Below, one piece after another: positions 11,314 through 29,926 of a stretch of 36,873 bases of DNA (position 1 is its first letter; each line of letters starts with the position of its first letter). A model generated the notes under the pieces. The model was given only the letters and a program-made list of their open reading frames with translations. It did not search any database and had not been told where the DNA came from. A program made the position numbers and the translations under genes. Source of the stretch: Hyphomicrobiales bacterium. GTDB lineage: Bacteria; Pseudomonadota; Alphaproteobacteria; Rhizobiales; Methyloligellaceae. The stretch lies in the NCBI GenBank assembly GCA_021775575.1, contig JAJFHO010000186.1, positions 1 to 36,873 of the forward strand. The letters are read 5' to 3'.

Positions 11314-11880
11314 ATGATCCAGGCGACCGAAATCCTGCAGGATCTCGACCCGGTCCGTTCCGCTGTTGCCGGGGTCGATGCGCTCCTGAAAGAACATGGC
11401 CAGCTTTCCGTCACCTCACGGCCCGGCGCCGCTGAACCGCTTCTCGATGCCCTGGGCTGGCTGCCGGAAGATGCGCGGGAGGCCGACTATTCAGTCGTCA
11501 ATGAGGAATTCAGGGGTGGCGCCATCGAGGAATTGTTGCGCAAGCTCCCGTTTCGCCATGGCCGTGTCCGGCTGATGCGGCTTGCGCCGAAATCCTGCCT
11601 TTCAATCCACAAGGATTCGACCCGGCGTTACCATTACGCCGTTAGAACCTCGCCGGATTGCTATCTGGTGGAGATGAATGCGACAAGCGGCATCTTCCAT
11701 CACATTCCGGCCGACGGGCGGCTTTACGAGATGGACGCGCGGCGCACGCATACGGCAATCAATGCCGGCCGCGAAGGCCGGGTCCATATCGTCATCTGCA
11801 ACGCGGACGAAACCGACGCGCTGCAAGCGGACGCCGTCGGGCGTGTTCGCGGCCTTGCGCCGGCGGAGGGTTCGGCATGA
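11314..11880 (+). CDS. Aspartyl/asparaginyl beta-hydroxylase-like Fe(II)/2-oxoglutarate dioxygenase
   Basis: A 188-aa single-domain protein. The core RVRLMRLAPKSCLSIHKDST resembles the Asp/Asn beta-hydroxylase fold, with a metal-binding HxD (H99, D101), a second His in RRTHTAIN (H146) and a downstream RVHIV (R156) suited to 2-oxoglutarate. Such enzymes hydroxylate side chains of proteins or small molecules. It has a strong GGGGAGG site and opens an operon with a complete ABC importer, so it may act on the imported substrate; that link is inference. There is no signal peptide, so it should be cytoplasmic. The protein looks complete. Substrate unknown. Confidence 0.8.
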   Translation: MIQATEILQDLDPVRSAVAGVDALLKEHGQLSVTSRPGAAEPLLDALGWLPEDAREADYSVVNEEFRGGAIEELLRKLPFRHGRVRLMRLAPKSCLSIHKDSTRRYHYAVRTSPDCYLVEMNATSGIFHHIPADGRLYEMDARRTHTAINAGREGRVHIVICNADETDALQADAVGRVRGLAPAEGSA

Positions 11881-11962
11881 CCGGATGCGGGACGAATGCC
11901 CGCTCGCTGCTACGTCGAGGCCCCCGGGTCCGCAACCGCCATGCCGCAGCAGGCCGCCAAGG

Positions 11963-13915
11963 ATGAGCATGGCGGCGGGCAATCTCACCAGGAGACCGTC
12001 GCGCAAGCGCGCCCCCCCGGCCGTGCCGAAAGATAACCTTGTTACGGTTCGCAACCTGCGTATCGCTTTTCAGGAGCACGACCAGGATGTCGAGGTCGTC
12101 AAAGGCGTCTCCTTCCGCATCGAGGCGGGCTCGACAGTCGCGCTGGTCGGAGAATCCGGCGCCGGAAAGTCGGTAATCGGTCAGTCGATCATGGGCATCC
12201 TGCCCAAGATTGCGAGAGTCACGGCCGGTGAAATTCTGTTTGCCGATGCCAAGACGGGCGAGGTGACGGACCTCGCCCAGGTCGATCAGGATTCCAAGCA
12301 GTATCAGCAAATCCGCGGCGGGCGGATTTCGGTGATCTTCCAGGAACCTATGACATCGCTCTCGGCCTATCATACGATCGGCGATCAGATATCCGAGGCC
12401 CTGTTCCTGCATCGCGACGTAACGCACAGCGAGGGTATGGACCTTGTTGTCGAGATGCTCACGCTGTGCGGTTTCCCCGACCCTTCCAAAGCGGTCAAAC
12501 GCTATCCCTTCGAGCTGTCGGGCGGTCTCCGGCAACGGGCCATGATCGCCATGGCGCTGGTCTGCCGTCCGGCCCTGCTGATCGCGGATGAACCGACGAC
12601 CGCGCTCGATGTATCGGTTCAAGCCCAGATTCTAAAGCTCATCAAGGATCTGCAGGCCAAGCTCGGGATGGCCGTCCTGATCATCACCCACGATCTTGGC
12701 GTCGTCGCCAATATGGCCGACGAGGTGATCGTTCTGTTCCACGGTAAGATCATGGAAAGCGGAACGATCAACGACATCTACACCAAACCCAAACACGCCT
12801 ATCTGAAGGGATTGTTCGGCGCTGTGCCGCATTTCGACATGAAGCCGGGCGAGCGGTTGATTTCACCGGCCGATTTGACGCTCGTTTCCCCAATGCCGGA
12901 AGACAATGCCGCCAAGGAAAAAGAGGAAGCAAAGAGGCCCGCGCGCGCCCTGCTGGAAGTTCGCAACCTGACCAAGGAGTTTGTCGCGCGCAAAGGCGGG
13001 TTTTTCGGAGCGTCAACCGAAAACAAGGTCGTCGCGGTTGACGATGTCAGCTTCGAGATTCGGGAGCATGAATGCCTTGGCCTGGTGGGCGAATCGGGTT
13101 GCGGCAAGACCACGCTGTCGAAAATGATCATGCGCGCGCTGGCGCCGACATCGGGAGAAATACTGGTTCACCGCAAAAGCGGCACGGTCGATCTGGCCCG
13201 GAACCGGGACCATGGCGGAGAACTCAATCAGGCCATCCAGATGGTTTTTCAAGACCCTTTCGGGTCGCTCAACCCCCGCATGACCGTTTTCGATATCATC
13301 CGCGAACCCCTGGTGATCCACCGGATCGGCGACCGCGCCGACCATGCCGTGAAAGTGCAGGAATTGATGCGGCTCGTGCGGCTCGATCCGCGCTTTCTGA
13401 CCCGTTACCCGCACAGCTTCTCCGGTGGCCAGCGCCAGCGGATCGGTCTGGCGCGTTCGCTCGCCCTCGACCCCGAACTGCTCATTCTCGACGAACCGGT
13501 TTCCGCCCTCGACGTGTCGATACAGGCGCAGATCCTCAATCTGCTGAAGGACATGCAATCCGAGCTCGGGCTGACCTATCTTTTCATTTCCCACAATCTT
13601 GCGGTGGTCGATTATGTGGCCGACCGCATCATCGTCATGTGCCAGGGACGCATCGTGGAGTCGGCGCCGCGCGAGGTTCTGTTCCGCAATCCCGTCCACC
13701 ATTACACGCGCGCGCTTATTTCCGCCGTCCCCTATGCCGAACTCGACCGGCCGCTCGATTTGAGCGCGCTGCAGGCCGGCGACGGCACGGCCCCGTCGGC
13801 ATGGCCCCCTCCATTCACTTTCGCGCCCGGACAGAAGATGGAATTTCTCGATCTGGGCGAGGAACATAAAGTACTTGTCGCGGTCGGAGCGACGAAGAAG
13901 GACCTTCCCAAATGA
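11963..13915 (+). CDS. Double-NBD ABC importer ATPase (oligopeptide-type)
   Basis: One polypeptide of 650 aa carries both ATPases of a peptide-type importer, like YejF or GsiA. NBD1 has Walker A GESGAGKS (63-70), signature LSGGLRQR and Walker [16 protein letters not shown]2 has GESGCGKT (376-383), signature FSGGQRQR and [13 protein letters not shown] charged linker ([18 protein letters not shown]) joins them, and each ends in the usual oligopeptide-binding C-terminal segment. The track begins 95 residues too early, inside the dioxygenase gene. I use the ATG at 11963 (AGG nine bases upstream); an ATG at 11969 with AAGG at six bases is an alternative. The stop overlaps the next start by four bases (ATGA). 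Confidence 0.93.
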
Positions 13916-15846
13916 GCCGGTTTCCATGGGTGATTGCGGTCCTTCTGGCTTTCATTTTGCACGCAAGCCCGGCCTGGCCCGCCGAGCTGAAGGAACCGCC
14001 CTATCTGCAGAGCTTGATCGCTTCGGGCGCCTTGCCGCCGGTGGCCGAACGCCTTCCCCAAGACGCCATGGTCGTCGACATGACCAGCGAGGGAAAAATG
14101 CCGGGCCGCCACGGCGGCGCTTTAAAAATCTTGCTCGGCAAGCAAAAAGATACGCGCATGATCACCGTCTACAGCTATGCGCGTCTGATCGGCTACACGC
14201 CCGACTTCGAACTGAAACCGGACATCTTGAAGAAAATCGATGTTGAGGAGGGGCGCATTTTCACCTTCCACCTTCGCCGTGGCCACCGCTGGTCGGACGG
14301 GCATCCCTTCACCGCGGAGGACTTCCGCTACTATTGGGAAGACGTCGTGGGAAACAAGCAGCTTCGTCCGGGCGGGCCGCCCAAGCAGATGCGGGTCGGC
14401 AAGGAGATCGCGAAATTCGAGGTTATCGACGAAGTCACCGTGCGTTACAGCTGGTCCAAGCCCAATCCGCGCTTCCTGCCCTGGCTTGCCGGTTCCAGCC
14501 CACCGGCGATCTACCGGCCCGCGCACTATCTCAAACAGTTCCATGACAAGTATGGCGATGCGGCGGAAATCCGCAAACGCGTCGAGAGCGAGGGCCGGCG
14601 CAACTGGGCGGATGTGCATTTCAGCCGCGATCGGCCATACCGCGCCGACAATCCCGACCGGCCAATGCTGGAGCCGTGGGTGAACGTCACCGCGCCGCCG
14701 TCGCAGCGCTTCGTGTTCCAGCGCAACCCCTATTACTACCGTATCGATGAAAATGGCCGGCAGTTGCCCTATTTGGACGAAGTCATGGTTACGCTGGGTT
14801 CGGTCGCCATGGTGCCGGCCAGAACCGGCTCAGGAGAAACCAATCTGCAGGCCCGCTATCTGCGCTTTGAACATTACACCTTCCTCAAGCAGGCCGAGCA
14901 GCGCAACAATATGTCCGTGCGCCTCTGGCAGATTCTGAAGTCGTCGCATAAGGCGATCTACCCCAACATGAACACCGCCGACCCGGTCTGGCGGAAACTC
15001 ATGCACGACGTCCGGTTCCGCCGCGCCCTGTCGCTTGGCGTCAACCGGCATGAGATCAATCAGGTGATCTATTACGGTCTTGCGAATGAGAGCAACAATA
15101 CGGTTTTCCCCGCCAGTCCTCTGTACAGGCCCGAATATCAGTATAACTGGGCGAAGTTCGACATTGAGCAGGCCAACGCGCTGCTCGACGAGATCGGTCT
15201 CACCAAACGCGACGAAGAAGGAACGCGATTGCTCCCCGACGGACGGCCCGCGCATATGATCATAGATCTGGCCGGCGAGAGCACCGAGGAAAGCGATATT
15301 CTCGAACTGGTCCGCGAAAGCTGGGGGCAGATCGGCCTTAAGCTGTTCCCGCGCCCGTCACAGCGCGAAGTGTTCAGGAGCAGGGTTTTCTCCGGCGAAG
15401 CGCTGATGTCGATGTGGGCGGGCTTCGGAAATGGCCGCTCCACGGCGCAAATGAGTCCTTACGCCTTCACGCCGACGCAGCAATATCAGTATCAGTGGCC
15501 GCAATGGGGCCTTTATGTTTCCACCCGCGGCAAGAAAGGGCAGAAGCCGGAGCTTCGCGAGGTCAACCGTCTGATCGAGCTCAACAAGGAATGGCTCGGC
15601 TCTGTCGGCGAAGAAGATCAGACGCGCATCTGGCGGGAAATCCTTCAGATCAACGCCGATCAGGTGTTCACCATCGGTACGGTCAACGCGACGTTGCAGC
15701 CAATCGTCGTATCCAACGACATGCAGAATGTACCTGAGAAGGGATTTTACAACTGGGACCCGGGCGCCTATTTCGGCATTTACAAACCTGACACTTTCTG
15801 GATCAAGCAGATCGAGAAAAGCGCTGCGGTTGCGGCGGACAAATAA
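13912..15846 (+). CDS. Periplasmic solute-binding protein, family 5 (oligopeptide-type)
   Basis: The 644-aa product begins with a signal peptide ([20 protein letters not shown], then AWPA) and is the substrate receptor of the importer. The SBP_bac_5 fold is recognisable from FTFHLRRGHRWSDGHPFTAE with DFRYYWEDV, VRFRRALSLGVNRHEINQVI and YNWAKFDIEQANALLDEIG. Family members bind peptides, nickel chelates or oligosaccharides. At about 620 mature residues it is longer than DppA/OppA (about 520), as in the YejA or AgpA-like group. Start and stop overlaps couple it to the ATPase gene. The late NWDPGAYFGIYKPDTFW segment is typical of this long subgroup in my recollection. Substrate not determinable. 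Confidence 0.92.
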   Translation: MSRFPWVIAVLLAFILHASPAWPAELKEPPYLQSLIASGALPPVAERLPQDAMVVDMTSEGKMPGRHGGALKILLGKQKDTRMITVYSYARLIGYTPDFELKPDILKKIDVEEGRIFTFHLRRGHRWSDGHPFTAEDFRYYWEDVVGNKQLRPGGPPKQMRVGKEIAKFEVIDEVTVRYSWSKPNPRFLPWLAGSSPPAIYRPAHYLKQFHDKYGDAAEIRKRVESEGRRNWADVHFSRDRPYRADNPDRPMLEPWVNVTAPPSQRFVFQRNPYYYRIDENGRQLPYLDEVMVTLGSVAMVPARTGSGETNLQARYLRFEHYTFLKQAEQRNNMSVRLWQILKSSHKAIYPNMNTADPVWRKLMHDVRFRRALSLGVNRHEINQVIYYGLANESNNTVFPASPLYRPEYQYNWAKFDIEQANALLDEIGLTKRDEEGTRLLPDGRPAHMIIDLAGESTEESDILELVRESWGQIGLKLFPRPSQREVFRSRVFSGEALMSMWAGFGNGRSTAQMSPYAFTPTQQYQYQWPQWGLYVSTRGKKGQKPELREVNRLIELNKEWLGSVGEEDQTRIWREILQINADQVFTIGTVNATLQPIVVSNDMQNVPEKGFYNWDPGAYFGIYKPDTFWIKQIEKSAAVAADK

Positions 15847-15916
15847 GCTTGAACCGGGGGAGAATCGGGGCAGTGAGCGGCAAGAATCGCAATATCGGTG
15901 AAGCCGGAGGCAAGCC

Positions 15917-16915
15917 ATGATCGGTTTTGTCTTGCGCCGCATTCTTTTGATGATTCCAACCCTCTTGGTGATTTCAATGATCGTTTTCACGATCATTGAA
16001 TTACCGCCCGGCGACTATCTGGAAAGCTATGTTGCGGAGCTGCAGGCGCGGGGCGAAACGGTCAACGAAGACGAGATCAATTTTCTCCGCGAGCAATATG
16101 GCTTCGGCCAGCCCGTCGTCCAGCGCTATGTCGACTGGGTCTGGGGGATGCTGCATGGGGATTTCGGATATTCGTTTGAATACCGGTTGCCGGTTTCCGA
16201 TATCGTTGGCGACCGTATCCTCCTGACCATCGTGGTCTCGCTGGCGACCATTATATTTACCTGGCTCGTGGCGTTTCCAATCGGCATCTACTCGGCCACG
16301 CATCACTATAGCTGGGGCGATTACGGTCTGACCTTCCTCGGCCTGCTTGGACTGGCGACGCCCAACTTTCTGCTCGCCCTTGTCCTGCTCTATCTCGCAA
16401 ATGTCTGGTTCGGAACCTCGATCGGCGGTCTCATGGAACCGAAATATCTCGACCAGGCCTGGTCCTGGGGCAAACTCGTTTCAGTGCTGGAGCATTTGTG
16501 GATTCCGGTGGTCGTCGTCGGCACCGCGGGCACCGCGGGTCTTGCCCGCCGGCTGCGCGCCAACCTGCTGGACGAGTTGCAGAAACAATATGTCACAACC
16601 GCCAAGGCGAAGGGGTTGTCCCCGGCCAAGGTGCTCATCAAATATCCGCTGCGCGCGGCGATGAACTTCTTTGTTTCGGACATCGGTCATCTGCTGCCGG
16701 CGATCATTTCCGGCGCCGAGCTGACCGCGATCGTGCTTTCGCTGCCGACGACGGGACCGGTGCTGATCTCTGCCCTGCAGAGCCAGGACATGTATCTGGC
16801 CGGGTCCTTTCTGATGTTCCTGTCAACGCTGACGGTCGTCGGCGTTCTGGTGTCCGACCTGGCGCTCGCGGTCCTGGACCCCCGGATTCGTCTTGAAGGG
16901 GGGCAAAGCCGGTGA
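15917..16915 (+). CDS. ABC importer permease, DppB/YejB type
   Basis: A 332-aa inner-membrane permease with about six transmembrane helices, starting MIGFVLRRILLMIPTLLVIS as is usual for DppB-type proteins. The cytoplasmic coupling loop reads TTAKAKGLSPAKVLIKYPLR. A strong GGAGG lies six bases before the ATG; the 70-base gap after the solute-binding protein gene has no other feature. It pairs with the next gene product to form the channel energised by the double-NBD ATPase. Its stop overlaps the next GTG start (GTGA). Confidence 0.93.
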   Translation: MIGFVLRRILLMIPTLLVISMIVFTIIELPPGDYLESYVAELQARGETVNEDEINFLREQYGFGQPVVQRYVDWVWGMLHGDFGYSFEYRLPVSDIVGDRILLTIVVSLATIIFTWLVAFPIGIYSATHHYSWGDYGLTFLGLLGLATPNFLLALVLLYLANVWFGTSIGGLMEPKYLDQAWSWGKLVSVLEHLWIPVVVVGTAGTAGLARRLRANLLDELQKQYVTTAKAKGLSPAKVLIKYPLRAAMNFFVSDIGHLLPAIISGAELTAIVLSLPTTGPVLISALQSQDMYLAGSFLMFLSTLTVVGVLVSDLALAVLDPRIRLEGGQSR

Positions 16916-18090
16916 AACCGCGCCAGATACCCAAACCCGGGCAGAAATTGCCGCATTACACCTCCCGGGAACCATTCGAGCATGCCGCCGCTGCCCGTCT
17001 GACGCCCGAACAGGAGCGCTACTATCTCGCCTCGCAATGGCAGTTGATGTGGTGGCGGTTCAAGCGGCACCGGCTCGCCGTGATCTCCGCAGTCTTCCTG
17101 CTGCTGGCTTACGGCTCGATTTTTATTACCGAGTTCCTGTCGCCTTACAATCTGCATTCCCGGCATGTCGACCAGATCTACATGCCGCCGCAAAGCGTCC
17201 ATCTGTTACACGACGGCTCCTTTATCGGCCCGTTCGTTTACGGAACGCATTACGAGCTCGATATGCAGAATTTGCGGCGCGTCTATACCGAGGACAAGTC
17301 GAAGATTCACCGTCTCCAATTCTTCTGTTCCGCCGACAGCTACAAATTCTGGGGGCTGATTGAGGCCGACAACCACCTGTTCTGCGTCGAGGATGGCGGT
17401 ACGATATTTCTGCTCGGCACCGACCGTCTGGGACGCGATATCCTGTCGCGCCTTTTATCCGGCGGCCGGATTTCGCTGACCATCGGTCTCATCGGCATTG
17501 TCCTGAGTTTCACCATGGCGATCACGATCGGCGGCCTTGCGGGCTATTACGGCGGGATTGTCGACCTCTTCGTTCAGAGGGTCATCGAAATCCTCCAGAG
17601 TTTCCCGCAAATTCCGCTATGGATGGCGCTGGCCGCGATCCTGCCGGTCACCTGGTCGCCGCTGCTGATCTATTTCGGCATAACCGTCATTCTCGCCCTG
17701 CTCGACTGGACCGGACTTGCGCGCGCAGTGCGTTCCAAGCTGCTGGCGCTGCGCGAGGAGGATTATTGCATGGCGGCCCGGGTCATGGGCGCCAGTCCCA
17801 ACCGCGTCATATTCCGCCATCTTATGCCCGGCGTCATGAGCCACCTGATCGCGTCGGCGACATTGTCGATCCCGAATATGATCCTCGGCGAAACCGCGCT
17901 GAGCTTCCTGGGGCTCGGCCTCAGGCCGCCAATCACAAGCTGGGGCGTTTTGCTGAACGAGGCACAGAATATCAATGTGGTCGCGTTGTACCCCTGGCTC
18001 ATTTTTCCAGTGGTTCCGGTGATCCTTGTGATCCTCGCCTTCAATTTCGTCGGCGACGGGATGCGCGACGCCGCCGATCCCTACAAGTAG
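16912..18090 (+). CDS. ABC importer permease, DppC/YejE type, with a large periplasmic insertion
   Basis: A 392-aa permease starting with GTG and overlapping the previous gene by four bases. After the first helix (about residues 55-75) comes a roughly 85-residue extracytoplasmic segment. It includes VHLLHDGSFIGPFVYGTHYE and LQFFCSADSYKFWGLIEAD before the usual LLGTDRLGRDILSRLLSGGR. The coupling loop is EDYCMAARVMGASPNRVIFR and the core ends LSFLGLGLRPPITSWG. Standard DppC proteins (about 300 aa) lack this insertion; I recall it in a rhizobial subgroup linked to oligosaccharides. The insertion may contact the binding protein. Otherwise intact. Confidence 0.92.
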   Translation: MKPRQIPKPGQKLPHYTSREPFEHAAAARLTPEQERYYLASQWQLMWWRFKRHRLAVISAVFLLLAYGSIFITEFLSPYNLHSRHVDQIYMPPQSVHLLHDGSFIGPFVYGTHYELDMQNLRRVYTEDKSKIHRLQFFCSADSYKFWGLIEADNHLFCVEDGGTIFLLGTDRLGRDILSRLLSGGRISLTIGLIGIVLSFTMAITIGGLAGYYGGIVDLFVQRVIEILQSFPQIPLWMALAAILPVTWSPLLIYFGITVILALLDWTGLARAVRSKLLALREEDYCMAARVMGASPNRVIFRHLMPGVMSHLIASATLSIPNMILGETALSFLGLGLRPPITSWGVLLNEAQNINVVALYPWLIFPVVPVILVILAFNFVGDGMRDAADPYK

Positions 18091-20373: not shown

Positions 20374-21588
20374 ATGAGCGAGCGGCTCGACGGCGCGCGT
20401 ATGTTGATTTACAGCCACGATACATTTGGCCTCGGTCATTTGCGTCGGTGCCAGGCGATCGCCCACGCGCTGGTCGAGCGCTACAAGGGCCTTTCCATCA
20501 TCATTCTGTCGGGCTCCCCGATCATCGGCAGTTTCGACTTCCGGGCCCGTGTGGATTTCGTCCGTGTGCCGGGCGTAATCAAACTCTACAATGGCGAATA
20601 TACCTCGCTGGCGCTGCATATCGATATTCAGAGCACCCTGGCGATCCGCGCCTCGATCATCAGGCATACAGCGGAGGTCTTCCACCCCAATCTGTTCCTT
20701 GTCGACAAGGAACCGCTCGGTCTGCGTGGCGAAATCACCGAGACCCTGCACCTGCTCAAGGGCATGGGAACGAAACTGGTGCTTGGCCTGCGCGATATCA
20801 TGGACGAGCCGAAATTGCTGCGCCGGGAATGGGAATCGCGCCAGCTTATGCCCGCGCTGGCCGGCCTCTATGACGAAATCTGGGTCTATGGCCTGCAGGA
20901 GGTCTGGAATCCCCTGACCGATCTGGAGATACCGCAGCAGGTTACCGACAAGATGCGCTACACGGGTTATCTCAAACGCTCGCTACCGCAACGCGTCAAG
21001 CGCACGCCGGCCGCGGAAGTGAAAGAGCCCTATATTCTCGTGACCGGCGGCGGCGGCGGCGACGGACATGACCTGATCGACTGGGTGCTCCGGGCCTATG
21101 AATCCGATCCCACCCTGCCTTATGCGCCTCTGTTCGTCCTCGGCCCCTTCATGAACGCCGATCAGCAGGAAGAGCTGACAGGGCGGATCGAGCAATTGCC
21201 GGGCGCCAACACCATCACCTTCGACAGCCATGTCGAATTCCTGATGGCGGAGGCAGCCGGCGTCATTGCGATGGGCGGCTACAATACCTTTTGCGAGATC
21301 CTGTCCTTCGACAAGAAGGCGATTATCGTGCCACGCTGCAAGCCTCGGCAAGAGCAGCTTATCCGGGCGCAGCAGGCCAGCCGGCTTGGACTGGTGCGGA
21401 TGATCGATCCGGAAAGAATAAAGGATCCATCGGTCATGGCGACGGCAATCCGCGAGCTTCCCAATCAGCCCAGGCCATCCTCGACGCTTCTGCCGGGGAT
21501 GCTTGACGGATTGGACAAGGTCGCCAACCTGGCGCGGCCTCACCTTCTCGGCGTCGAAGAGAAGCAGGCCGTCGTCGAAGCGGTTTAG
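20374..21588 (+). CDS. MurG-like (COG4671-type) glycosyltransferase, paralog 1
   Basis: A 404-aa GT-B fold protein. The N-terminal domain opens MLIYSHDTFGLGHLRRCQAI, and the C-terminal nucleotide-sugar domain has the Gly-rich ILVTGGGGGDGHDLI, then FLMAEAAGVIAMGGYNTFCE and IIVPRCKPRQEQLIRAQQA. This is the layout of MurG-related predicted glycosyltransferases. There is no signal peptide or membrane helix, so it probably acts at the cytoplasmic face. GAGAG lies just before the ATG. It heads a plus-strand run with the GT4 gene (14-base gap) and a second paralog (ATGA overlap), then a radical SAM gene. Donor and acceptor unknown. Confidence 0.85.
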   Translation: MSERLDGARMLIYSHDTFGLGHLRRCQAIAHALVERYKGLSIIILSGSPIIGSFDFRARVDFVRVPGVIKLYNGEYTSLALHIDIQSTLAIRASIIRHTAEVFHPNLFLVDKEPLGLRGEITETLHLLKGMGTKLVLGLRDIMDEPKLLRREWESRQLMPALAGLYDEIWVYGLQEVWNPLTDLEIPQQVTDKMRYTGYLKRSLPQRVKRTPAAEVKEPYILVTGGGGGDGHDLIDWVLRAYESDPTLPYAPLFVLGPFMNADQQEELTGRIEQLPGANTITFDSHVEFLMAEAAGVIAMGGYNTFCEILSFDKKAIIVPRCKPRQEQLIRAQQASRLGLVRMIDPERIKDPSVMATAIRELPNQPRPSSTLLPGMLDGLDKVANLARPHLLGVEEKQAVVEAV

Positions 21589-21602: not shown

Positions 21603-22859
21603 GTGACCGGCACTGTCGCATTCATCCTCAAGGGGTATCCGCGCCTCTCCGAAACCTTCATCGCGCAGGAAATTCACGGTCTCGAACAACTCGGTCTCGA
21701 TATCCATATCTATTCCCTGCGTCCGCCCCGCGAGCCCGAGAGACATCCTGTCCACGCCCAGATTCGCGCGGACGTCACCTATTTGCCGGAACGCCTGCGC
21801 GATGATCTCCCGCGCGTCTGGCGCGCGCTCAGGCAGGCGACAAGCCGCCCGGGATTCAAGAAGGCGCTGAGACGCTGGATCTCCGATATGCTGCGCGCAC
21901 CCTCTCCCGACCGTGCACGCCGCTTTGGCCAGGCGCTGGTGCTGGCCGGCGAAATCACGCCGGAAACCACGCACCTGCACGCCCATTTTCTGCACACGCC
22001 TTCCTCAGTCGCCCGATACGCGGCCGCGCTCACCGGCCTGCCCTGGAGCTGCTCGGCGCATGCGCGCGATATCTGGACGATCGGCGATTGGGAAAAGCGC
22101 GCCAAACTCGGCGAGATGGACTGGCTCGTGACCTGTACGCGGACGGGCTGCGCTCATTTGGCGGAACTCACGCCAACACCGGCAAAGGTCGAGCTGGTCT
22201 ATCACGGATTGGATTTGGAGCGCTTCTCTCCTCCGGCGGCGCGGGCGCCAGCGCGCGACGGCACGAAAGCGAGTGATCCCGTCCGGCTGCTCTCGGTCGG
22301 GCGGGCGGTGGAGAAAAAAGGTTTCGACCTTTTGCTGAAGGCGTTCGCTTCCCTCGACAAAGGCACCCATTGGCGCTGGGTCCATATCGGCGATGGGAGC
22401 CTGATCGATCCGCTGAAAGGTCAGGCGCGCAGATCGGGTCTGGAAGAGCGGATCACATGGCTTGGCGCGTGCCCGCAAGCTCAGGTGATCGATCAATATG
22501 CCCGTGCGGATTTGTTCATTCTGCCCTCCCGCATAGCCTCGGACGGTGACCGCGACGGACTTCCCAACGTTCTGGTCGAGGCGCAATCGCAGGGCCTGTG
22601 CTGCCTGTCGACCCGCCTGCCCGCGATATCGGAACTGATCGACGACGGCATGACGGGGCTCCTTGTGCCGGCGGACGAGGCCAGCGCCCTCACCGCGGCA
22701 CTGGCGCAATTGATCGGCGATCCGGATTTGCGCCGGCGGCTTGGCGAAGCGGGCCTGAAAAAAGTGCGCCGCGACTTCTCTCACCACACCGGTCTGGCCA
22801 AGCTCGCCCGGCGCTTCGGCCTGCCGCCCACCGACCAAAGCACACGGCCGGCGGCATGA
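21603..22859 (+). CDS. GT4-family glycosyltransferase
   Basis: A 418-aa retaining glycosyltransferase with GTG start. The N-terminal domain has FILKGYPRLSETFIAQEI and THLHAHFLHTPSS. The C-terminal domain has LLSVGRAVEKKGFDLLLKAF, then LFILPSRIASDGDRDGLPNV and the donor-binding ExxxxxxxE-like segment LVEAQSQGLCCLSTRLPAI. SETF at the N-terminus and the DRDGLPNV loop are common in colanic-acid-type and other envelope GT4 enzymes. It lies 14 bases after the first MurG-like gene, and its stop overlaps the next start. Probably adds a sugar to a glycan or lipid-linked intermediate; the donor cannot be told. Confidence 0.9.
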   Translation: MTGTVAFILKGYPRLSETFIAQEIHGLEQLGLDIHIYSLRPPREPERHPVHAQIRADVTYLPERLRDDLPRVWRALRQATSRPGFKKALRRWISDMLRAPSPDRARRFGQALVLAGEITPETTHLHAHFLHTPSSVARYAAALTGLPWSCSAHARDIWTIGDWEKRAKLGEMDWLVTCTRTGCAHLAELTPTPAKVELVYHGLDLERFSPPAARAPARDGTKASDPVRLLSVGRAVEKKGFDLLLKAFASLDKGTHWRWVHIGDGSLIDPLKGQARRSGLEERITWLGACPQAQVIDQYARADLFILPSRIASDGDRDGLPNVLVEAQSQGLCCLSTRLPAISELIDDGMTGLLVPADEASALTAALAQLIGDPDLRRRLGEAGLKKVRRDFSHHTGLAKLARRFGLPPTDQSTRPAA

Positions 22860-24022
22860 CCCGGCTTCTGATCCATGTCCAGTATCTCAAGGGAATTGGC
22901 CACCTGCAGCGCGCGAAGCTGATTGCCGAGGCCGCCGCCGCGCGGGGGCTTGATGTGCATATCGCCTCCGGCGGCCTGCCGGTTGCGGATTTCCGTCCCG
23001 GGGGCGCCGCGGTCCACCAGCTCCCGGCGCTTCAGGCCGGCCCCGGCGGCTTCACGGATCTGCGCGACGCAGATGGGAAGCCGGTCGACGACGCCTGGCG
23101 CGCAACGAGACAGGATAAATTACTGGCCCTGTTCAGGCAGGTTCGCCCGGATATTCTGCTGGTCGAGAGCTTTCCTTTCGGCCGCCGCGCGCTGTCATAC
23201 GAACTGGTGCCCCTGCTGGAAGCCGCGCACGGGCGAAGCCCGCGTCCGGCGGTTCTGTGCTCCCTACGCGACATTCTTCAGACCAACCGCAAGCCCGGCC
23301 GGACGAAGGAAACCCTTTCGCGCCTGCGCGAGTTTTTCGACGGCGTGCTCGTCCATGGAGATCCGGACTTTGTTCCGCTGGAGGAGACATTCGCGAGAAC
23401 GCCGGAAATCGCAGGCCTGCTTCGCTACACAGGTTTCGTCGCGGCGGACAAAGAGGCCTTCGAGCCGCGCCCCGAAACGCCGCGCGGCGAAGTCATCGTC
23501 TCCACGGGCGGCGGCGCCATTGGCCCCGCGCTTCTCGACGCGGCGCTCGCCGCGCGGCCCGATACGCCGTTTCACGATACGCCCTGGCGGCTGATTGCCG
23601 GCCCGCACCTTGCGCAGAGTGACTATGAACGGCTGCTCCATACCGCGCCCGATGGCGTCGCCGTGGAGCGGTTCCGTAATGATTTCAGAGCCTTGATGGC
23701 GGCAGCGAAGCTTTCCATCTCCTATGCCGGCTATAATACGGTAACGGATCTTTTGCGCGCGCGCGTGCCAAGTGTGCTGATCACCTATGGCGGCGAAGAG
23801 GGGCGCGAGACCGAGCAGGCGATGCGCGCGGCACGGCTCAGCGGCGGCGGACTGGCAGCAACGCTGTCCGATGCGGAACTTTCGCCGGACACCCTTTTGC
23901 GGGCGATTGAGGAGGCCGATGCATGCCGGCCCGTGCCCGCATGCGATTTCGATCTGGAGGGCGCCGCCAAGTCGGCCGATATATTAGCTGGATATGATTG
24001 CGAGGCAGCGGCCGCGGGTTGA
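22856..24022 (+). CDS. MurG-like (COG4671-type) glycosyltransferase, paralog 2
   Basis: The true frame starts at the ATG overlapping the GT4 stop (ATGA) and gives 388 aa; the track's 86-residue extension is a shadow of the GT4 gene. It begins LLIHVQYLKGIGHLQRAKLI, parallel to the first paralog. It has a Gly-rich VIVSTGGGAIGPALLDAA, then LMAAAKLSISYAGYNTVTDL and VPSVLITYGGEEGRETEQA. The GHL(R/Q)RA and GYNT motifs are shared with the gene at 20374, so the two are probably duplicates specialised for different acceptors. Cytoplasmic, with no membrane helix. Function inferred only from the fold. Confidence 0.84.
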   Translation: MTRLLIHVQYLKGIGHLQRAKLIAEAAAARGLDVHIASGGLPVADFRPGGAAVHQLPALQAGPGGFTDLRDADGKPVDDAWRATRQDKLLALFRQVRPDILLVESFPFGRRALSYELVPLLEAAHGRSPRPAVLCSLRDILQTNRKPGRTKETLSRLREFFDGVLVHGDPDFVPLEETFARTPEIAGLLRYTGFVAADKEAFEPRPETPRGEVIVSTGGGAIGPALLDAALAARPDTPFHDTPWRLIAGPHLAQSDYERLLHTAPDGVAVERFRNDFRALMAAAKLSISYAGYNTVTDLLRARVPSVLITYGGEEGRETEQAMRAARLSGGGLAATLSDAELSPDTLLRAIEEADACRPVPACDFDLEGAAKSADILAGYDCEAAAAG

Positions 24023-24119: not shown

Positions 24120-25226
24120 ATGTATACACAGAGCGACATAAGGGCGATCCATCTGGAGGTTACGACCCATTGCAACGCGCATTGCCCGCAATGCCCGCGC
24201 AATATCGATGGCGGCGCCCGCAATCCGAACATGCCGCTGACCCAGCTCTACCTCGCCGATATCGAAAAGATCTTTCCCCGCCCCGACTTTCCAAACCTCA
24301 AGCGGATACAGGTGTGCGGGAATTATGGCGACGCGATCATGGCCCGGGACTTCCTGGAGATTGCGCGCTATCTCAAGAGCCTCTACCCGCATATTTCGAT
24401 AACGCTCGCAACCAACGGTTCGTTGCGCCCGGTGGATTGGTGGCGCGATCTGGCGGTGCATGTGGACCATTGCGTGTTCGGAATAGACGGTCTGGCCGAC
24501 ACCCACGCCCTCTATCGCCGGGGAACCGACTTCGACACGATCATTGCCAACGCGAAGGCCTATATCGCCGGCGGCGGACGGGCCGAATGGGCCTATCTGA
24601 TCTTCAGGCACAACCAGCATCAGGTCGACGAAGCGCACCGGCTGAGCCAAGAACTGGGCTTCCATGAATTTTCCGCCAAGGCGACAAGCCGTTTTTACGA
24701 CGAGGGCCGCAAGGCGGCGACAAGTCCGGTGCGCGATGAAAGCGGGGAGATCGTCTATCGTCTCGAAGCGCCTAGCGACGTCCGGCTCGGCAATGCCGAA
24801 CTCGACCGCCTCGACCAAACGCTGCTCGGCGACGCGCAAAAATTCAACGACTACATCACCAGCACCAAGATCGACTGCAAGGCGATCAGCCGCGCCAAGC
24901 TTTATATCAGCGGCGAAGGGCATGTCTTTCCCTGCTGCTGGGTCGGAAATATTTATCCTTCCGACAAGTCCTGGCGGGATACCCAAAGAGGAGGCGCCAT
25001 CCTGCGCAGCGGCGGACTGGATCTTCTCGACGCCAAAATCCACCCGATTGGCGCCATTCTCGAAGGCGAGTTTTTCAAACGCACCGTGCCGGAGGCATGG
25101 AAATGCGGCCCTGACCGGCTGAAGGTCTGTTCCAAGATGTGCGGTGAAGTCGATATCAATCTGGCGCAATATGTCGACTATACGCCTCGGTCCGAAGACC
25201 GGGAGGAGGAACAGCTGGAGGCGTAG
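24120..25226 (+). CDS. Radical SAM enzyme (paralog 2)
   Basis: A 368-aa radical SAM protein with CNAHCPQC (C18, C22, C25) for the [4Fe-4S] cluster. ISITLATNGSLRP and CVFGIDGLADTHALYRRGTD follow. C-terminal cysteines (TKIDCKAIS, HVFPCCWVG, KVCSKMCGE) resemble a SPASM or twitch domain for an extra cluster. It follows the second MurG-like gene after 97 bases with no gene or terminator, so it may share that operon. FDTIIAN and FRHNQHQVDEA align with segments of the radical SAM protein at 18916. The stop is convergent with the methyltransferase-like gene, 16 bases away. Substrate unknown. Confidence 0.86.
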   Translation: MYTQSDIRAIHLEVTTHCNAHCPQCPRNIDGGARNPNMPLTQLYLADIEKIFPRPDFPNLKRIQVCGNYGDAIMARDFLEIARYLKSLYPHISITLATNGSLRPVDWWRDLAVHVDHCVFGIDGLADTHALYRRGTDFDTIIANAKAYIAGGGRAEWAYLIFRHNQHQVDEAHRLSQELGFHEFSAKATSRFYDEGRKAATSPVRDESGEIVYRLEAPSDVRLGNAELDRLDQTLLGDAQKFNDYITSTKIDCKAISRAKLYISGEGHVFPCCWVGNIYPSDKSWRDTQRGGAILRSGGLDLLDAKIHPIGAILEGEFFKRTVPEAWKCGPDRLKVCSKMCGEVDINLAQYVDYTPRSEDREEEQLEA

Positions 25227-25242: not shown

Positions 25243-25959
25243 CTATTTCCGCCCGATCAGCATGAAGCGGGTGTATTTCTCAAGTTCAAGCTGCCCGGCG
25301 AACAGCAGCTCGCTCATCGGCGCCTGGCGCTTGAAGGCCTCAAGGCTTTCAACGCAATTCACATGCTCGGGGATCACCACATAATTGTTCGACTGGAGAA
25401 CCAGCGTCACACCGTCCGGCAGGCGCGCATACCAATCGTCGAATGCAGCCAGATGCTCGCAGCTCGTATTGACGATGATGTCGGGTCGGGTGAGACCATC
25501 GGGCAGTGCTGAATAGTCCAGTGCGTAGATGTCGTGGCAGGCGAAGGCGAAGCGGCCTGTCTTCGCATGGGTCGCATTCAGGCTGAGTGCTACTTCCTCG
25601 CAGGAGGGATCGACATCGACAACAGTGAGTTTCTCCACCTGCAACTGCTTCTCCGCCAGCAGCATCGCGCCTAACAGGCCGTACCAGCCGGCAAGGATAT
25701 GAATTGTCCCCAGCTCAGGCCCGCAGGCGCGCGCCAGCTCCTCGACAAGCCACTTCTTGCAGGCCGTCTGCTTCTTGTTGAGGGCGATGCCGAGTGCCGA
25801 GTCCGGATAGGCGAGAACGGTGTCGCGGACATCCCGGATAAAGGGGTTCTGGTAGAGGACCGCGAGCCCGTCCAGAATGTCCTTGAAGGACTGAACTGTC
25901 GGATCGAGATCGCGTCCGACCGCTTCCGGCCAGACCGGCCACCGCTTTGTCACATCCAT
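25243..25959 (-). CDS. SAM-dependent methyltransferase-like protein
   Basis: A 238-aa Rossmann-type protein. IHILAGWYGLLGAMLLAEK fits a SAM-binding first loop (the usual GxGxG is looser here), followed by LTVVDVDPSCEEVAL with an acidic residue at the end of strand 2, then DIIVNTSCEHLAAFDDW. The ATG comes three bases after the stop of the 1033-aa ABC-like gene (TGA GGG ATG), so translation is almost certainly coupled. Helical N-terminus, no membrane segment. It could also be a related NAD- or SAM-binding enzyme; the motif match is moderate. Confidence 0.65.
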   Translation of the reverse strand: MDVTKRWPVWPEAVGRDLDPTVQSFKDILDGLAVLYQNPFIRDVRDTVLAYPDSALGIALNKKQTACKKWLVEELARACGPELGTIHILAGWYGLLGAMLLAEKQLQVEKLTVVDVDPSCEEVALSLNATHAKTGRFAFACHDIYALDYSALPDGLTRPDIIVNTSCEHLAAFDDWYARLPDGVTLVLQSNNYVVIPEHVNCVESLEAFKRQAPMSELLFAGQLELEKYTRFMLIGRK

Positions 25960-25962
25960 CCC

Positions 25963-28900
25963 TCAGGCGGCCTTTTGCTGACTCATCATCGTATTGGCCA
26001 GCCGCTCGCTGGCAATACGCGCCGCATTCGCGGCAACTTTCGGGTCGTTCTCGATGATCTGCAGGAACGGCTCCTTTTCTATTTCAAGGGCGACGACCTT
26101 GGAAAAGGCCCGGGCGCCGGCGGTCCGGGGCACCGTCGCGAGCAGCGCGATCTCACCAACCGGTTCGTGCTGGCCCAGACGCGCAACCTGTTTCTCATCC
26201 GGCGTGCCATCGTCGAGCAGGATGTCAACTTCACCGGACAGGATCACATAGGCCGCATTGCCCTTATCGCCTTGACGGAACAGGGTCTCGCCCCTTTCAA
26301 AGGTGACGCGCTTGGAGCCGAATGCCAGCAGTTTCAGATTGGAGGAACGGATATCGCGGAACATCGGCACTTTCGCCAGCGCCGCCGCCTCCGCCTGGAT
26401 TGCCATGGGCGCTTCGGCCTCCTCTTCCGCTTCGGCGGCAACCGGTTCAACGACGTGCTCTGTCGCGTCGACGATACGCTTCTCGATTCGGCCGTCGCGC
26501 AGCACGAGAACCTCGTTGAAATCCTCAGCTTTGGGGGTTTCACTATCGAGCCAGATGACGCTCGTCCCGGGCAATAGTTTGAAAATATTCTGCCGGATAC
26601 GGTCGACGGTCTCGCGATCATATGCGCCAAGCGCATTGTTGATGATCAGGATTTTCGGGCGTTTGATGATGCTGCGGGCCAGCCCCAACCCCTGGCGCGC
26701 GGCCGTGGTCAAACGCTGACCGCCAATCCCGGCCTCGGAATCCATGCCGGATATGATCACGTCTTTCAGCAAATCCATTTCCGTAATCACGTCGTGCAGC
26801 AACTCGTTCACTTTCGACTCCGCATTGGCGCGCTGCTGATTGTTCCGCCCCATAATCAGGTTGCGCCGGATCGAAAGCTGGGGATTGAATTTGTCCGGCT
26901 CGTAAAATGCAATCGCATCCGCCAGCTCCTCGGGCAGCGTGTCGTGGAACAGTTTGCGGGCCTCGACGATTTTCGACTGGAACGCTTCGTCGATATGGCC
27001 CAGCCGGTGCCGCTCGACACTTATCCGCGACGTCAGGGAAATCAATTCGGCCCTGTCTTTTTTGTCCAGCGCCGCAATGCCACCGTCCTCGCCCTTGGCC
27101 AGTATTCCCGCCAGCCGGTCGACTGTCGCATTGTCGACAAAGCTGAGCCGCTCAAGCAGGCCGGATTCGGCTTCACCATCGCCAAACATGTCAACCAGAT
27201 TGCCGGCAACCTCGAATCCGATTTCCTCGAATTGCCGTTCCAGTCCCGTTTCGGCGAGGATCGACCGGATAAAGGCATTGGTGCCGAAATTCTTCGGCGC
27301 CAGCCGATCATCCATGGGCTGCCCGAACAGCAGGTTGGTTCCGATCGCCGCACTGACGTTGAAAGTGTCGAAATCATACCGGCGGATGAGCTGGCTGAGC
27401 GCCTCATCCGACTCGAGCCGGGCAACAATATGTTTGCGGGCTTCCAGCAGTTTTTCGGGCAGGTGCGGGGTCCGGGTTTCGTCCACACGCGCGTTCAGGG
27501 CATGCTGCAAGACAATCTCATCGAGCTCGACGGATCGGATAATCTTGAACCACCAGTCCTGCAATTCCTCGACACTCGAAACGCCTGCCGACTTGAAATC
27601 CGTCCAGTCCTGGTCGCGGTCGTAGGGGCTGTTGCCGGAGGCCGCGGCTTCCATCGGGTCATACTCGCCGATATTGCCGGGAATTTCGCGCATCAGCCCG
27701 TAAACCGAGTTGTAGCCGATCGAGCCTTCGAAAATATAGGTCTCCGCTCCGGCATAGCCGATTTGCGAGCCGAGAACCTTGTCGGAGACCTGCGCCAGAT
27801 TGCGGCCGCCGACAAACACCTGCCCGCTACTCGGCTGGGTCAGGCGCGTCATGATCTGGGCAAGCCGGTCGCGGCCGGTATCACCCGCGACGATCGCCAG
27901 CTTGCCGCCCGGCGGAACCTCGAACGACACCGAGTCCAGCGGTTTGCTGCCATCCTCATCCGACACCGTCAGCTTGTCGAATTTGAGTGATCCGGCGAGA
28001 GGCTCCGCCTCTCCGGTGTCAGGCTCCAATATATCTCCGTTCAACAGAGACCCCAGTTCGAAATTCTCGACCAGTTGCTGATATTTGAGCCCGGCATCGC
28101 CAACGCGCTGATAATATTTCAACAACTCCTTCCAGGGAGTCGTGAGCTGGGCGTAAGCGCCCAGCGCCGCCACCAGCTGACCGACATCCAGCCTGCCGCT
28201 GAGGATCAGGAGCCCGCCGACCGAATAGAACAGCAGCGGCGTCATCTTCAGCAGAAACACATTGAGCGCCTTCATGAAATATTTGGTTTTGAACAGCCTG
28301 TAACGGACCTTGAATATGCCATCTAGATGTTTGGAAAAATCCGCCTGACTGAACACCTCGGTATTGTTGGCGCGGATATCGCGAATGCCTGAAACCGATT
28401 CGCCGACGCGCCCGGAAAGTTTGCGGGCCCGCTCGATACGGTCGCGGTTCATCAGATTGATTTTTCGCTGCAGCTTGGGGATTACATAGGCCTGCAGCGG
28501 TATCAGCGCGATACAGGCGACACCCATCAGCCAATCCTGGACAAACATAAAGGTCAGAATGACCAGCAATGTTCCGCCCTGGTAGACAGGCAGTGCAATC
28601 GCGTCGGCGATAAAATCGCGGACCAGCTCGACTTCGCCGGCGATCATCGTCGAAAGCTCGCCCTGGGAGACGCGCTGAAAATGCGGCAGGGGAAAGCGGA
28701 GTATGCGCTGATACAGCATATAGCGAAGCCGCCGCGTCATGCGCTCCGACATCAGATTCTTGGTCGTGTTGGTCGTCATGAGGAAATAGGCGTTCGCCAT
28801 GAGCAGAAAAAACAGAACGGCGCACAGGGTCAGCAGATAGCTCGCCTGGTCGAATTCGATCCCGAAGCAGACACGCGGGAATCCGCCACCCTCGCAGAAA

Positions 28901-29064
28901 AATGGAGCTGTCGTGGAGGTGGTCTTCAGGGCATCGTTGACGATGATTTTCGGTAGCTCGAGCGTCGCATAGAGAAAGGGGAAGGAGGCGAGCGTGATCA
29001 GCGTGATCGCGAATTGCTGCCGCTTGCTGTAACGCCAGATAAAATCGTAGATACTTTTTTCCAT
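25963..29064 (-). CDS. ABC-exporter-like protein with degenerate ATPase, long insert and C-terminal cyclic-nucleotide-binding domain
   Basis: A 1033-aa membrane protein. Residues about 15-320 are a six-helix exporter-type domain (SQGELSTMIAGEVELVRDFI, KLSGRVGESVSGIRDIRANN). An ABC-like domain follows in which hallmark residues are lost. Walker A is GDTGRDRLA (394-402; Lys to Arg, Gly to Asp), the Q-loop reads GYAGAETYIF, the signature is IGGQRLTTAARQ (780-791), Walker B is ILIINNALGAYD (N809, N810 replace Asp-Glu), and the H-loop His is replaced (SVIWLDSE). Between Q-loop and signature lie about 320 residues with an internal repeat. Residues about 885-1005 form a cNMP-binding domain with GEIALLATVPRTAGARA (970-986). 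It is probably a non-hydrolysing, ligand-regulated protein. GGGGAT precedes the ATG. Partner gene: the methyltransferase-like protein. Confidence 0.88.
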   Translation of the reverse strand: MEKSIYDFIWRYSKRQQFAITLITLASFPFLYATLELPKIIVNDALKTTSTTAPFFCEGGGFPRVCFGIEFDQASYLLTLCAVLFFLLMANAYFLMTTNTTKNLMSERMTRRLRYMLYQRILRFPLPHFQRVSQGELSTMIAGEVELVRDFIADAIALPVYQGGTLLVILTFMFVQDWLMGVACIALIPLQAYVIPKLQRKINLMNRDRIERARKLSGRVGESVSGIRDIRANNTEVFSQADFSKHLDGIFKVRYRLFKTKYFMKALNVFLLKMTPLLFYSVGGLLILSGRLDVGQLVAALGAYAQLTTPWKELLKYYQRVGDAGLKYQQLVENFELGSLLNGDILEPDTGEAEPLAGSLKFDKLTVSDEDGSKPLDSVSFEVPPGGKLAIVAGDTGRDRLAQIMTRLTQPSSGQVFVGGRNLAQVSDKVLGSQIGYAGAETYIFEGSIGYNSVYGLMREIPGNIGEYDPMEAAASGNSPYDRDQDWTDFKSAGVSSVEELQDWWFKIIRSVELDEIVLQHALNARVDETRTPHLPEKLLEARKHIVARLESDEALSQLIRRYDFDTFNVSAAIGTNLLFGQPMDDRLAPKNFGTNAFIRSILAETGLERQFEEIGFEVAGNLVDMFGDGEAESGLLERLSFVDNATVDRLAGILAKGEDGGIAALDKKDRAELISLTSRISVERHRLGHIDEAFQSKIVEARKLFHDTLPEELADAIAFYEPDKFNPQLSIRRNLIMGRNNQQRANAESKVNELLHDVITEMDLLKDVIISGMDSEAGIGGQRLTTAARQGLGLARSIIKRPKILIINNALGAYDRETVDRIRQNIFKLLPGTSVIWLDSETPKAEDFNEVLVLRDGRIEKRIVDATEHVVEPVAAEAEEEAEAPMAIQAEAAALAKVPMFRDIRSSNLKLLAFGSKRVTFERGETLFRQGDKGNAAYVILSGEVDILLDDGTPDEKQVARLGQHEPVGEIALLATVPRTAGARAFSKVVALEIEKEPFLQIIENDPKVAANAARIASERLANTMMSQQKAA

Positions 29065-29269
29065 AGCCAGATCCCCATGGGCGCCATATCCCGCTTCATG
29101 CGCCCTAATGCCGCACGCGCCAATCTGACCACCTGCCTAACAGGAATACAACGCTGGAAATGTCGAATAACAATATCTGCCAACGGTGTGTGCGGCCTGG
29201 ATTTATTCGACGGGATTGGTCTCGCGGGCTAGCTGAGCGCATATATTACGTATAAGCAGAGACTTAAAG
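29065..29269. other. Divergent intergenic region between the ABC-like and cupin genes
   Basis: 205 bases without a gene. On the minus strand TTGTTA and TGTATT, 17 bases apart, could be a weak promoter for the ABC-like gene. On the plus strand an AT-rich GCATATATTACGTATAAG just before the cupin gene may hold its -10 region. No terminator or clear operator was seen. Confidence 0.4.
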
Positions 29270-29926
29270 ATGCCGCCTTATCATAATGAACATATCCTGG
29301 CCGACGATGCCGCGCGCAACGCTTTGCGGAAGCTGGCATCGTCATGCGCCCAATTCGCGGCGGCCATGCCCGACGACGAGGAGGCACAAGGGAACGCATT
29401 GCAGGGCCTGATCGCGGAAGCCGGAGAACAGATACGAACGCGTACTCTTCGTCTCGCCGACAACTTCGCCGGGAAAGATGAGGTTATCCGGCTTTACAAG
29501 GCGCCCGTCGGCGCGGGCCGGCTGAAACTGCAACTGTTCCCGCTCGATGAGGGCGACACCCATCCGCCCCATGCGCACTACAATCTTATCAGCTGCCAGA
29601 TCGTCCTTAAGGGCCGTGCGCGGATACGCGAATATTCGCTGCTCAGACGCCTGGCCGGCGATGAACTGGAAATTCGGGAAGAGCCGGTCAGGTTCGTGGA
29701 GCCGGGCGACGGGGTTTATACGCTGCAAAAGCGCAACAACATCCATTGGCAGGAGGGGCTTGAGCCCGGCACCGTGCTGCTCAACATCAACTGGCAAGGC
29801 TTCTTCACCGACAATGTGATGGCGCCGGACCGCGCCGTGCACGGACGCTGTTATATCGACTGGGAGCGTGCCCGTCCGGCGGAGCGGGCCGGCTGTTTCA
29901 TCGTGCCGGAGGTCGTCGGCGCCTAA
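29270..29926 (+). CDS. Cupin-fold protein, possible metal-dependent dioxygenase
   Basis: A 218-aa protein. THPPHAHYNLISCQIVLKG (H98, H101, H103) resembles cupin motif 1, with Gln where Glu is usual. EPGDGVYTLQKRNNIHW (H159) would supply the last ligand of motif 2. The N-terminal 60 residues are helical. The arrangement recalls cysteine-dioxygenase-like cupins, but the substrate is unknown and it could be a non-enzymatic binding protein. It diverges from the ABC-like gene and is convergent with the redoxin gene (9 bases between stops). No signal peptide. Confidence 0.7.
   Translation: MPPYHNEHILADDAARNALRKLASSCAQFAAAMPDDEEAQGNALQGLIAEAGEQIRTRTLRLADNFAGKDEVIRLYKAPVGAGRLKLQLFPLDEGDTHPPHAHYNLISCQIVLKGRARIREYSLLRRLAGDELEIREEPVRFVEPGDGVYTLQKRNNIHWQEGLEPGTVLLNINWQGFFTDNVMAPDRAVHGRCYIDWERARPAERAGCFIVPEVVGA

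Follow-up and report, generated by a model that had tools for sequence, protein, structure and literature searches.

A class-wide alphaproteobacterial family of exporter-like ABC proteins with incomplete catalytic sites and a predicted cyclic-nucleotide-binding domain

The locus and its exporter-like protein

The 36,873-nt stretch of a Hyphomicrobiales genome analyzed here (contig JAJFHO010000186.1, below the window) encodes a half-size protein of 1033 aa with the build of an ATP-binding cassette (ABC) exporter and a degenerate ATPase. We refer to it as the pseudo-ABC protein (Table 1). A six-helix exporter-type transmembrane domain (TMD) is followed by a degenerate nucleotide-binding domain (NBD) and a fused cyclic-nucleotide-binding (cNMP) domain. 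Pfam assigns ABC_membrane to residues 76-310 (8e-29), only a fragment of ABC_tran to residues 376-448 (2.6e-6) and cNMP_binding to residues 920-1007 (PF00027, 6e-19, 68 bits). The AlphaFold2 model is confident and exporter-like (mean pLDDT 86.5), and Foldseek matches it to the ABC exporters TmrAB, TM287/288, MsbA and ABCB1. Sequence matches lead to type IV ABC exporters as well. Database entries for such proteins mostly carry the label "ABC transporter ATP-binding protein", and ATP-driven transport is thus assumed.

The window protein contains none of the six core catalytic residues, which are the Lys and Ser/Thr of Walker A, the Asp of Walker B, the catalytic Glu, the Q-loop Gln and the H-loop His. 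The original prediction, made from the sequence of the window, had read the Walker A Lys as Arg, the Walker B Asp-Glu pair as Asn-Asn, the Q-loop Gln and H-loop His as absent and the signature as lacking its Ser. The family alignment bears out each of these replacements at Arg398, Asn809 and Asn810, Ala440, Ser841 and Thr786, respectively, with Asp399 in place of the Walker A Ser/Thr. The replacements are not due to chance because canonical exporters of the same genome retain their catalytic motifs. The D-loop Asp (D816) and the Gly-Glu of the first intracellular loop are kept. The cNMP pocket was correctly seen as intact, with the Gly-Glu (G970, E971) and the phosphate-binding Arg (R980) of the PF00027 cassette in place, together with T981.

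The NBD is interrupted by an insertion of about 255 aa between the Q-loop and the signature. Profile-profile comparisons recover the Q-loop/helical segment three times, with match probabilities of 97.9% for copies B and C (E 5e-13), 89.7% for A and B and 83.9% for A and C. In the model, copies B and C share a strand-helix-strand pattern and lie 158 residues apart. At least in part, the insertion has therefore grown out of the helical segment of the NBD itself, two extra copies of which went into it.

Table 1. Features of the window and of related loci. Positions without a locus prefix refer to the window.
Feature	Position	Strand	Basis or remark
Pseudo-ABC exporter with fused cNMP domain, 1033 aa, half-size	25963..29064	-	Open reading frame, Pfam, AlphaFold2 model
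Six-helix exporter-type TMD, residues 1-335, most conserved part of the family	28060..29064	-	Pfam ABC_membrane, model helices, pairwise identity
Degenerate NBD, N-terminal part, residues 345-460, Walker A to Q-loop	27685..28032	-	Pfam, family alignment
Degenerate Walker A AGDTGRD, residues 393-399	27868..27888	-	Family alignment
Q-loop/helical segment copy A, residues 434-457	27694..27765	-	Family alignment, profile comparison
NBD insertion, residues 461-715, mostly helical	26920..27684	-	Alignment, model, profile comparison
Q-loop/helical segment copy B, residues about 558-583	27316..27393	-	hhalign, B versus C
Q-loop/helical segment copy C, residues about 716-741	26842..26919	-	Alignment, hhalign
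Degenerate NBD, C-terminal part, residues 716-862	26479..26919	-	Alignment
Degenerate signature LTTAA, residues 785-789 (canonical LSGGQ)	26698..26712	-	Family alignment
Degenerate Walker B ILIINN, residues 805-810	26635..26652	-	Family alignment
H-loop position, residue 841	26542..26544	-	Family alignment
Cyclic-nucleotide-binding domain, residues 920-1007	26044..26307	-	Pfam PF00027
Intact phosphate-binding cassette GEIALLATVPRTA, residues 970-982	26119..26157	-	Conservation in named homologs
Class I methyltransferase-fold protein (METHYLTRANSFERASE)	25243..25959	-	Start codon 4 nt beyond the pseudo-ABC stop codon
GT28-type glycosyltransferase	20374..21588	+	Homolog near pseudo-ABC in 61/80 named loci
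GT4-type glycosyltransferase	21603..22859	+	Homolog in 60/80 named loci
Second GT28-type glycosyltransferase, true start probably internal	22598..24022	+	Domain search
Oligopeptide-type ABC importer genes (two-NBD ATPase, SBP_bac_5, two permeases)	11678..18090	+	Often in the same cluster as pseudo-ABC
Intact sister L075, 1028 aa, fused cNMP domain	L075:4525-7611	-	Window's genome
Intact sister L076, 1014 aa, cNMP gene directly downstream	L076:1312-4356	+	Window's genome
TMD-only relatives	L176:7758-8996, L177:7773-9077, L202:5773-7077, L203:5773-7077		Four roseobacter plasmids

Spread of the family and distribution of constraint

Relatives of the pseudo-ABC protein (E <= 1e-60, the window's own genome included) occur in at least 9 of 30 genomes of the taxonomic family, at least 93 of 298 of the order and at least 129 of 385 of the class, which is about a third of the genomes sampled from the class. 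These counts are lower bounds since two candidates were scored per genome. In a phylum-wide sample, all 16 genomes with matches were either the window's own or of the same class. Relatives in named genomes were found with an alignment as query, and a single-protein query gave no matches. They belong mainly to Alphaproteobacteria such as Azospirillum, Thalassospira, Reyranella, Sneathiella, Tistrella, Inquilinus and Roseibium. Many rhizobial plasmids and a few metagenome-assembled genomes labelled Gammaproteobacteria or Anaerolineae also carry members. A phage origin was considered and set aside, with only weak matches that lie over the canonical exporter region.

Catalytic residues were counted in 57 sequences, consisting of the window protein and 56 named relatives, and in a second set of 66. 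The complete set of six is found in no member of either set (0/57, best five; 0/66, best four). Among the 57 sequences, the Walker A Lys is retained in 33 and the Ser/Thr in 9, the Q-loop Gln in 13, the H-loop His in 12, the Walker B Asp in 12 (Asn in 33) and the catalytic Glu in 32. The signature Ser (42/57) and the D-loop Asp (48/57) are more often kept, and the signature glycines are mostly gone. The window copy is the degenerate extreme of the family, and the replaced residues differ among members. Homologs thus conserve the residues as replaced only in part, as no member examined is complete but many keep the Walker A Lys, the catalytic Glu or the H-loop His. The losses are dispersed across the membrane-domain tree, as would be expected if the ATPase had been released from constraint early and its residues had then disappeared one by one. 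The fusion to a cNMP domain stands for the window protein but is a minority state, found in the window clade and a few other clades. Most members encode the cNMP domain in a separate open reading frame directly downstream.

Mean pairwise identity within the family is 56% for the membrane domain and 36-40% for the NBD and insertion. Four canonical exporters of the window's genome show the opposite order, with 17-22% for the TMD and 42-54% for the NBD. The former are within-family pairs and the latter paralogs, and it is the reversal of order that counts rather than the absolute values. Estimates of dN/dS point in the same direction. In the two cleaner pairs (L118/L161 and L135/L136, both still with dS above 1), values were 0.04-0.06 for the TMD and 0.06-0.30 for NBD parts, the NBD being looser than the TMD in both and all domains well below 1. 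The cNMP domain had a value of 0.09 in the one pair that is fused, close to the TMD. Other pairs were left out because they were too close (L091/L092) or had saturated or undefined dS (L095/L148, L111/L125, L110/L158). The most constrained TMD residues include an LPKxIxN motif at the end of transmembrane helix 1 (TM1) and the TM5-TM6 core. The cNMP cassette is nearly invariant among named homologs (G 78/78, E 72/78, R 76/78, T/S 77/78). Judging from these comparisons, the NBD is maintained under looser constraint, with the membrane domain and the ligand pocket tightly constrained. The pattern across domains speaks strongly against simple decay.

Four roseobacter plasmids carry TMD-only relatives of 413-435 aa without an NBD. 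Each directly follows a cupredoxin-type gene in a copper-resistance gene cluster (4/4 records). The two that were aligned keep nearly all family-invariant TMD residues, and both coupling helices, the docking sites of the NBD, are deleted or replaced. The TMD-only relatives are the best evidence that the membrane domain can function without an NBD, though not a proof for members that bear one.

Two intact sisters in the window's genome share the TMD-NBD-cNMP order of the pseudo-ABC protein and carry an NBD insertion of equal place and length (252-256 aa). Their ATPase motifs are complete (GGSGSGKS/T, YMPQ, LSGGQ, LDE, THD), and the architecture can hence be predicted to carry a working ATPase. 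Their NBDs align end to end with those of the pseudo-family (100% probability, E 8e-52), and the membrane domains have almost no detectable similarity. The pseudo-family might have descended from a form resembling the intact sisters. Homology of the insertions themselves was set aside after an insert-only profile comparison was not significant (1.8%). The sister type is rare in the other genomes searched, including a search with the insert region, and its class-wide count is unreliable as two candidates were scored per genome.

Polysaccharide gene context and the Sinorhizobium meliloti ortholog

Neighborhoods were counted in the flanks of 80 named loci. The GT28 and GT4 homologs each lie upstream in the opposite direction in 45 cases, with a median gap of 182 bp between pseudo-ABC and GT28. 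The gene order of the window, with the pseudo-ABC gene and the methyltransferase-fold gene followed by glycosyltransferases and the importer on the other strand, recurs at other loci. No second exporter gene was detected near pseudo-ABC at the 80 named loci. Nine class III nucleotide cyclase domains are encoded in the window's genome, and a ligand source for the cNMP domain therefore exists.

The adjacent methyltransferase-like gene had been proposed as a coupled partner of the pseudo-ABC protein. Its product has no family match and no sequence match in the PDB, and the AlphaFold2 model (pLDDT 84) matches class I S-adenosylmethionine (SAM) methyltransferases in Foldseek. The methyltransferase-like fold is thus upheld and a direct partnership would be conceivable, but the gene is kept downstream of pseudo-ABC mainly in the window clade. 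Class-wide, the neighbors are glycosyltransferases. A protein 38% identical to the methyltransferase-fold protein of the window adjoins the S. meliloti pseudo-ABC gene. The predicted methyltransferase may modify the glycan.

In S. meliloti 1021, the pseudo-ABC ortholog lies on pSymB (NC_003078.1) at 841,723-844,378, or about 26724-29379 of locus L201. The pseudo-ABC/cNMP pair has the GT28, GT4 and importer orthologs as neighbors. According to Travin et al. (PMC10128002), an uncharacterised polysaccharide of the envelope, termed PPP, is made by nine genes located between smb21252 and smb21271 and protects against phazolicin. Mutants in the glycosyltransferase genes smb21252 and smb21265 were about eightfold more sensitive to phazolicin, and insertions in cyaA (adenylate cyclase) were depleted, with a twofold lower minimum inhibitory concentration (PMC10128002). 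The pathway was reported as likely relevant to symbiosis (PMC10128002). About 13 genes separate the GT28 gene from the glycosyltransferase gene at one end of the region (GT4 by Pfam), which is the distance that the numbers 21252 and 21265 call for. By gene counting, the pseudo-ABC gene would be SMb21269, the cNMP gene SMb21270 and an FkbM-type methyltransferase gene SMb21271. Position and gene order therefore suggest that the S. meliloti ortholog belongs to the PPP surface-polysaccharide cluster. The texts that could be searched contained no description of the PPP-cluster exporter as lacking ATPase function, nor of its cNMP partner. The S. meliloti protein MsbA2 was set aside as the ortholog because its gene is part of the SMb21188-21191 operon, which lies near 938 kb (PMC3687685), and the ortholog lies at 841.7 kb.

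In the published sequence of strain 1021, the ortholog is split over two reading frames and has one base more than in strains GR4 and 2011, which might reflect a sequencing error or a strain mutation. A gene for an MscS-type mechanosensitive channel is found near the polysaccharide cluster both in S. meliloti (L201:5287-7500) and on a Sulfitobacter plasmid (L178:1-342).

Possible mechanisms and alternatives

We suggest that the family represents an ABC-derived membrane protein acting in the assembly or export of surface polysaccharide, in which the protein's own ATP hydrolysis is not used and a cyclic nucleotide acts through the cNMP domain and the pseudo-NBD. We give this reading about even chances. 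Read from sequence are the incomplete catalytic set, the shift in constraint, the intact pocket, the glycosyltransferase context and the NBD-less relatives. Polysaccharide as the substrate, an alternative energy source and gating by cyclic nucleotide are what we infer beyond these. A homodimeric membrane domain would move a surface-glycan precursor, or hold it for assembly, in the pathway used by S. meliloti for PPP. The energy would come from a source other than its own ATPase, as in the proton-driven SbmA/BacA. The repeat-expanded pseudo-NBD would serve as a dimerizing lever docked on the coupling helices, and a cyclic nucleotide bound to the fused or neighboring cNMP domain would set the state of the membrane part through this lever.

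Several observations weigh against such a mechanism. Some relatives keep four or five of the six core residues, including a Thalassospira member (K, S, D, E) and the member at L121 (K, S, Q, E, H), and the pseudo-NBD may bind ATP or turn it over slowly. Transport, substrate and proton coupling are presumed, and the cNMP domain is a predicted ligand binder. A glutamate ladder like that of SbmA was not identified, no structure-based comparison having been made. The link to PPP, moreover, comes from the position and gene order of the S. meliloti gene.

The pseudo-family shares with type IV ABC exporters (MsbA, TmrAB, TM287/288, ABCB1) the order and fold of TMD and NBD, the Gly-Glu of the first loop and the D-loop Asp. 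It differs in the incomplete catalytic set, the NBD insertion with its repeats, the higher conservation of the TMD than of the NBD and the cNMP domain, which is fused or encoded by the next gene. The peptide transporter SbmA/BacA, known as SLiPT, has an ABC-type membrane domain that is proton-driven and has lost its coupling helices (PMC13316013). The likeness would be a TMD freed from ATP, and the TMD-only relatives found here have also lost both coupling helices. The window protein, however, keeps its NBD and its coupling helices, as only the roseobacter relatives are TMD-only. Most members of the pseudo-family retain a pseudo-NBD and a cNMP partner, and the context is polysaccharide or copper rather than peptide transport. 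SbmA/BacA was not recovered as a sequence relative of the pseudo-family in the searches made.

More tentatively, the family might be a second, separate case of an ABC exporter breaking free of ATP, with its intermediates still extant. These intermediates would comprise members with partly intact NBDs, members with dead NBDs used as a cyclic-nucleotide-gated lever and members that dropped the NBD together with the coupling helices. The main branch would be a cyclic-nucleotide-gated, ATP-free glycan transporter. To our knowledge, degenerate NBDs have been known in their own right, and so have ABC folds without an NBD. We found no description of a class-wide, catalytically incomplete family that combines a near-invariant cNMP pocket with TMD-only offshoots in the literature that could be searched, with most subscription journals lying outside it. 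The intermediates would make the route of an ABC exporter to ATP independence testable within one family, with SbmA/BacA as a precedent. If the whole family is free of ATPase activity, a class-wide surface-polysaccharide pathway would contain a so far overlooked transporter or switch by which a cyclic nucleotide is read directly at the membrane. In S. meliloti, this pathway protects against an antimicrobial peptide (phazolicin; PMC10128002).

The most serious rival is a pure scaffold or sensor without translocation, in which the membrane domain would serve as an anchor for glycosyltransferases (in some clades also for the methyltransferase) and pass on signals from a cyclic nucleotide or from the membrane. 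Pseudo-enzymes often act as scaffolds, and the degenerate ATPase, the tight neighborhood with GT28 and GT4 genes and the intact ligand pocket could all be explained in this way. The most constrained residues, though, lie in the membrane domain, among them those of the LPKxIxN motif and the TM5-TM6 core, and persist without an NBD, for which a function in the membrane is the better fit. We therefore regard the scaffold as rather unlikely. The original prediction of a dead ATPase with a live-looking ligand domain that is no ordinary pump agrees with the lack of any complete member in either set and the near-invariant pocket. On the present data, however, the sensor, channel or scaffold proposed along with it is indistinguishable from ATP-free transport.

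Improbable, in our view, is a protein that binds nucleotide or turns it over very slowly, without ordinary hydrolysis, to drive a conformational switch. Retention of the NBD fold under purifying selection would suit such a switch, as would the Walker A Lys (33/57) and the catalytic Glu (32/57). The Walker A Ser/Thr, Walker B Asp, Q-loop Gln and H-loop His are nevertheless mostly lost (9, 12, 13 and 12 of the 57), and the window copy lacks all six.

Slightly more doubtful still is a heterodimeric exporter along the lines of TM287/288, TAP or MRP-type sites, in which the pseudo-ABC protein would be the degenerate half and an intact partner encoded elsewhere would supply the energy. ABC half-transporters often pair, canonical half-exporters exist in the window's genome and the kept signature Ser and D-loop Asp would be in line with a composite site. 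Heterodimeric exporters with one degenerate site tolerate non-canonical residues too, but in the pseudo-family the site is degraded on both faces. The glycines of the signature are mostly gone, the window copy lacks the signature Ser, and TMD-only relatives could offer no composite site. No linked exporter, canonical or other, was detected at the 80 loci, which leaves room for an unlinked partner. A decaying pseudogene, the outcome that the original prediction itself had named as its refutation, is hardly credible, as catalytic losses scattered over the tree would fit it but full-length open reading frames class-wide, purifying selection in the two cleaner pairs, constraint shifted to the membrane domain, and invariant TMD and near-invariant cNMP residues all contradict it.

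The S. meliloti PPP cluster is among the closest known systems, as it brings together orthologous GT28, GT4 and importer genes with the pseudo-ABC/cNMP pair. Further genes were noted in the window. Two radical SAM proteins (18916-20028, minus strand, and 24120-25226, plus strand) flank the glycosyltransferase genes, the second lying between these and the methyltransferase-fold gene. A gene without a Pfam match (29270-29926, plus strand) is divergent from and upstream of pseudo-ABC, and a gene 54% identical to it is also upstream of the closest pseudo-ABC homolog (L077). The same region encodes an 811-aa protein with a transglycosylase domain (Transgly, PF00912; 4051-6486, plus strand).

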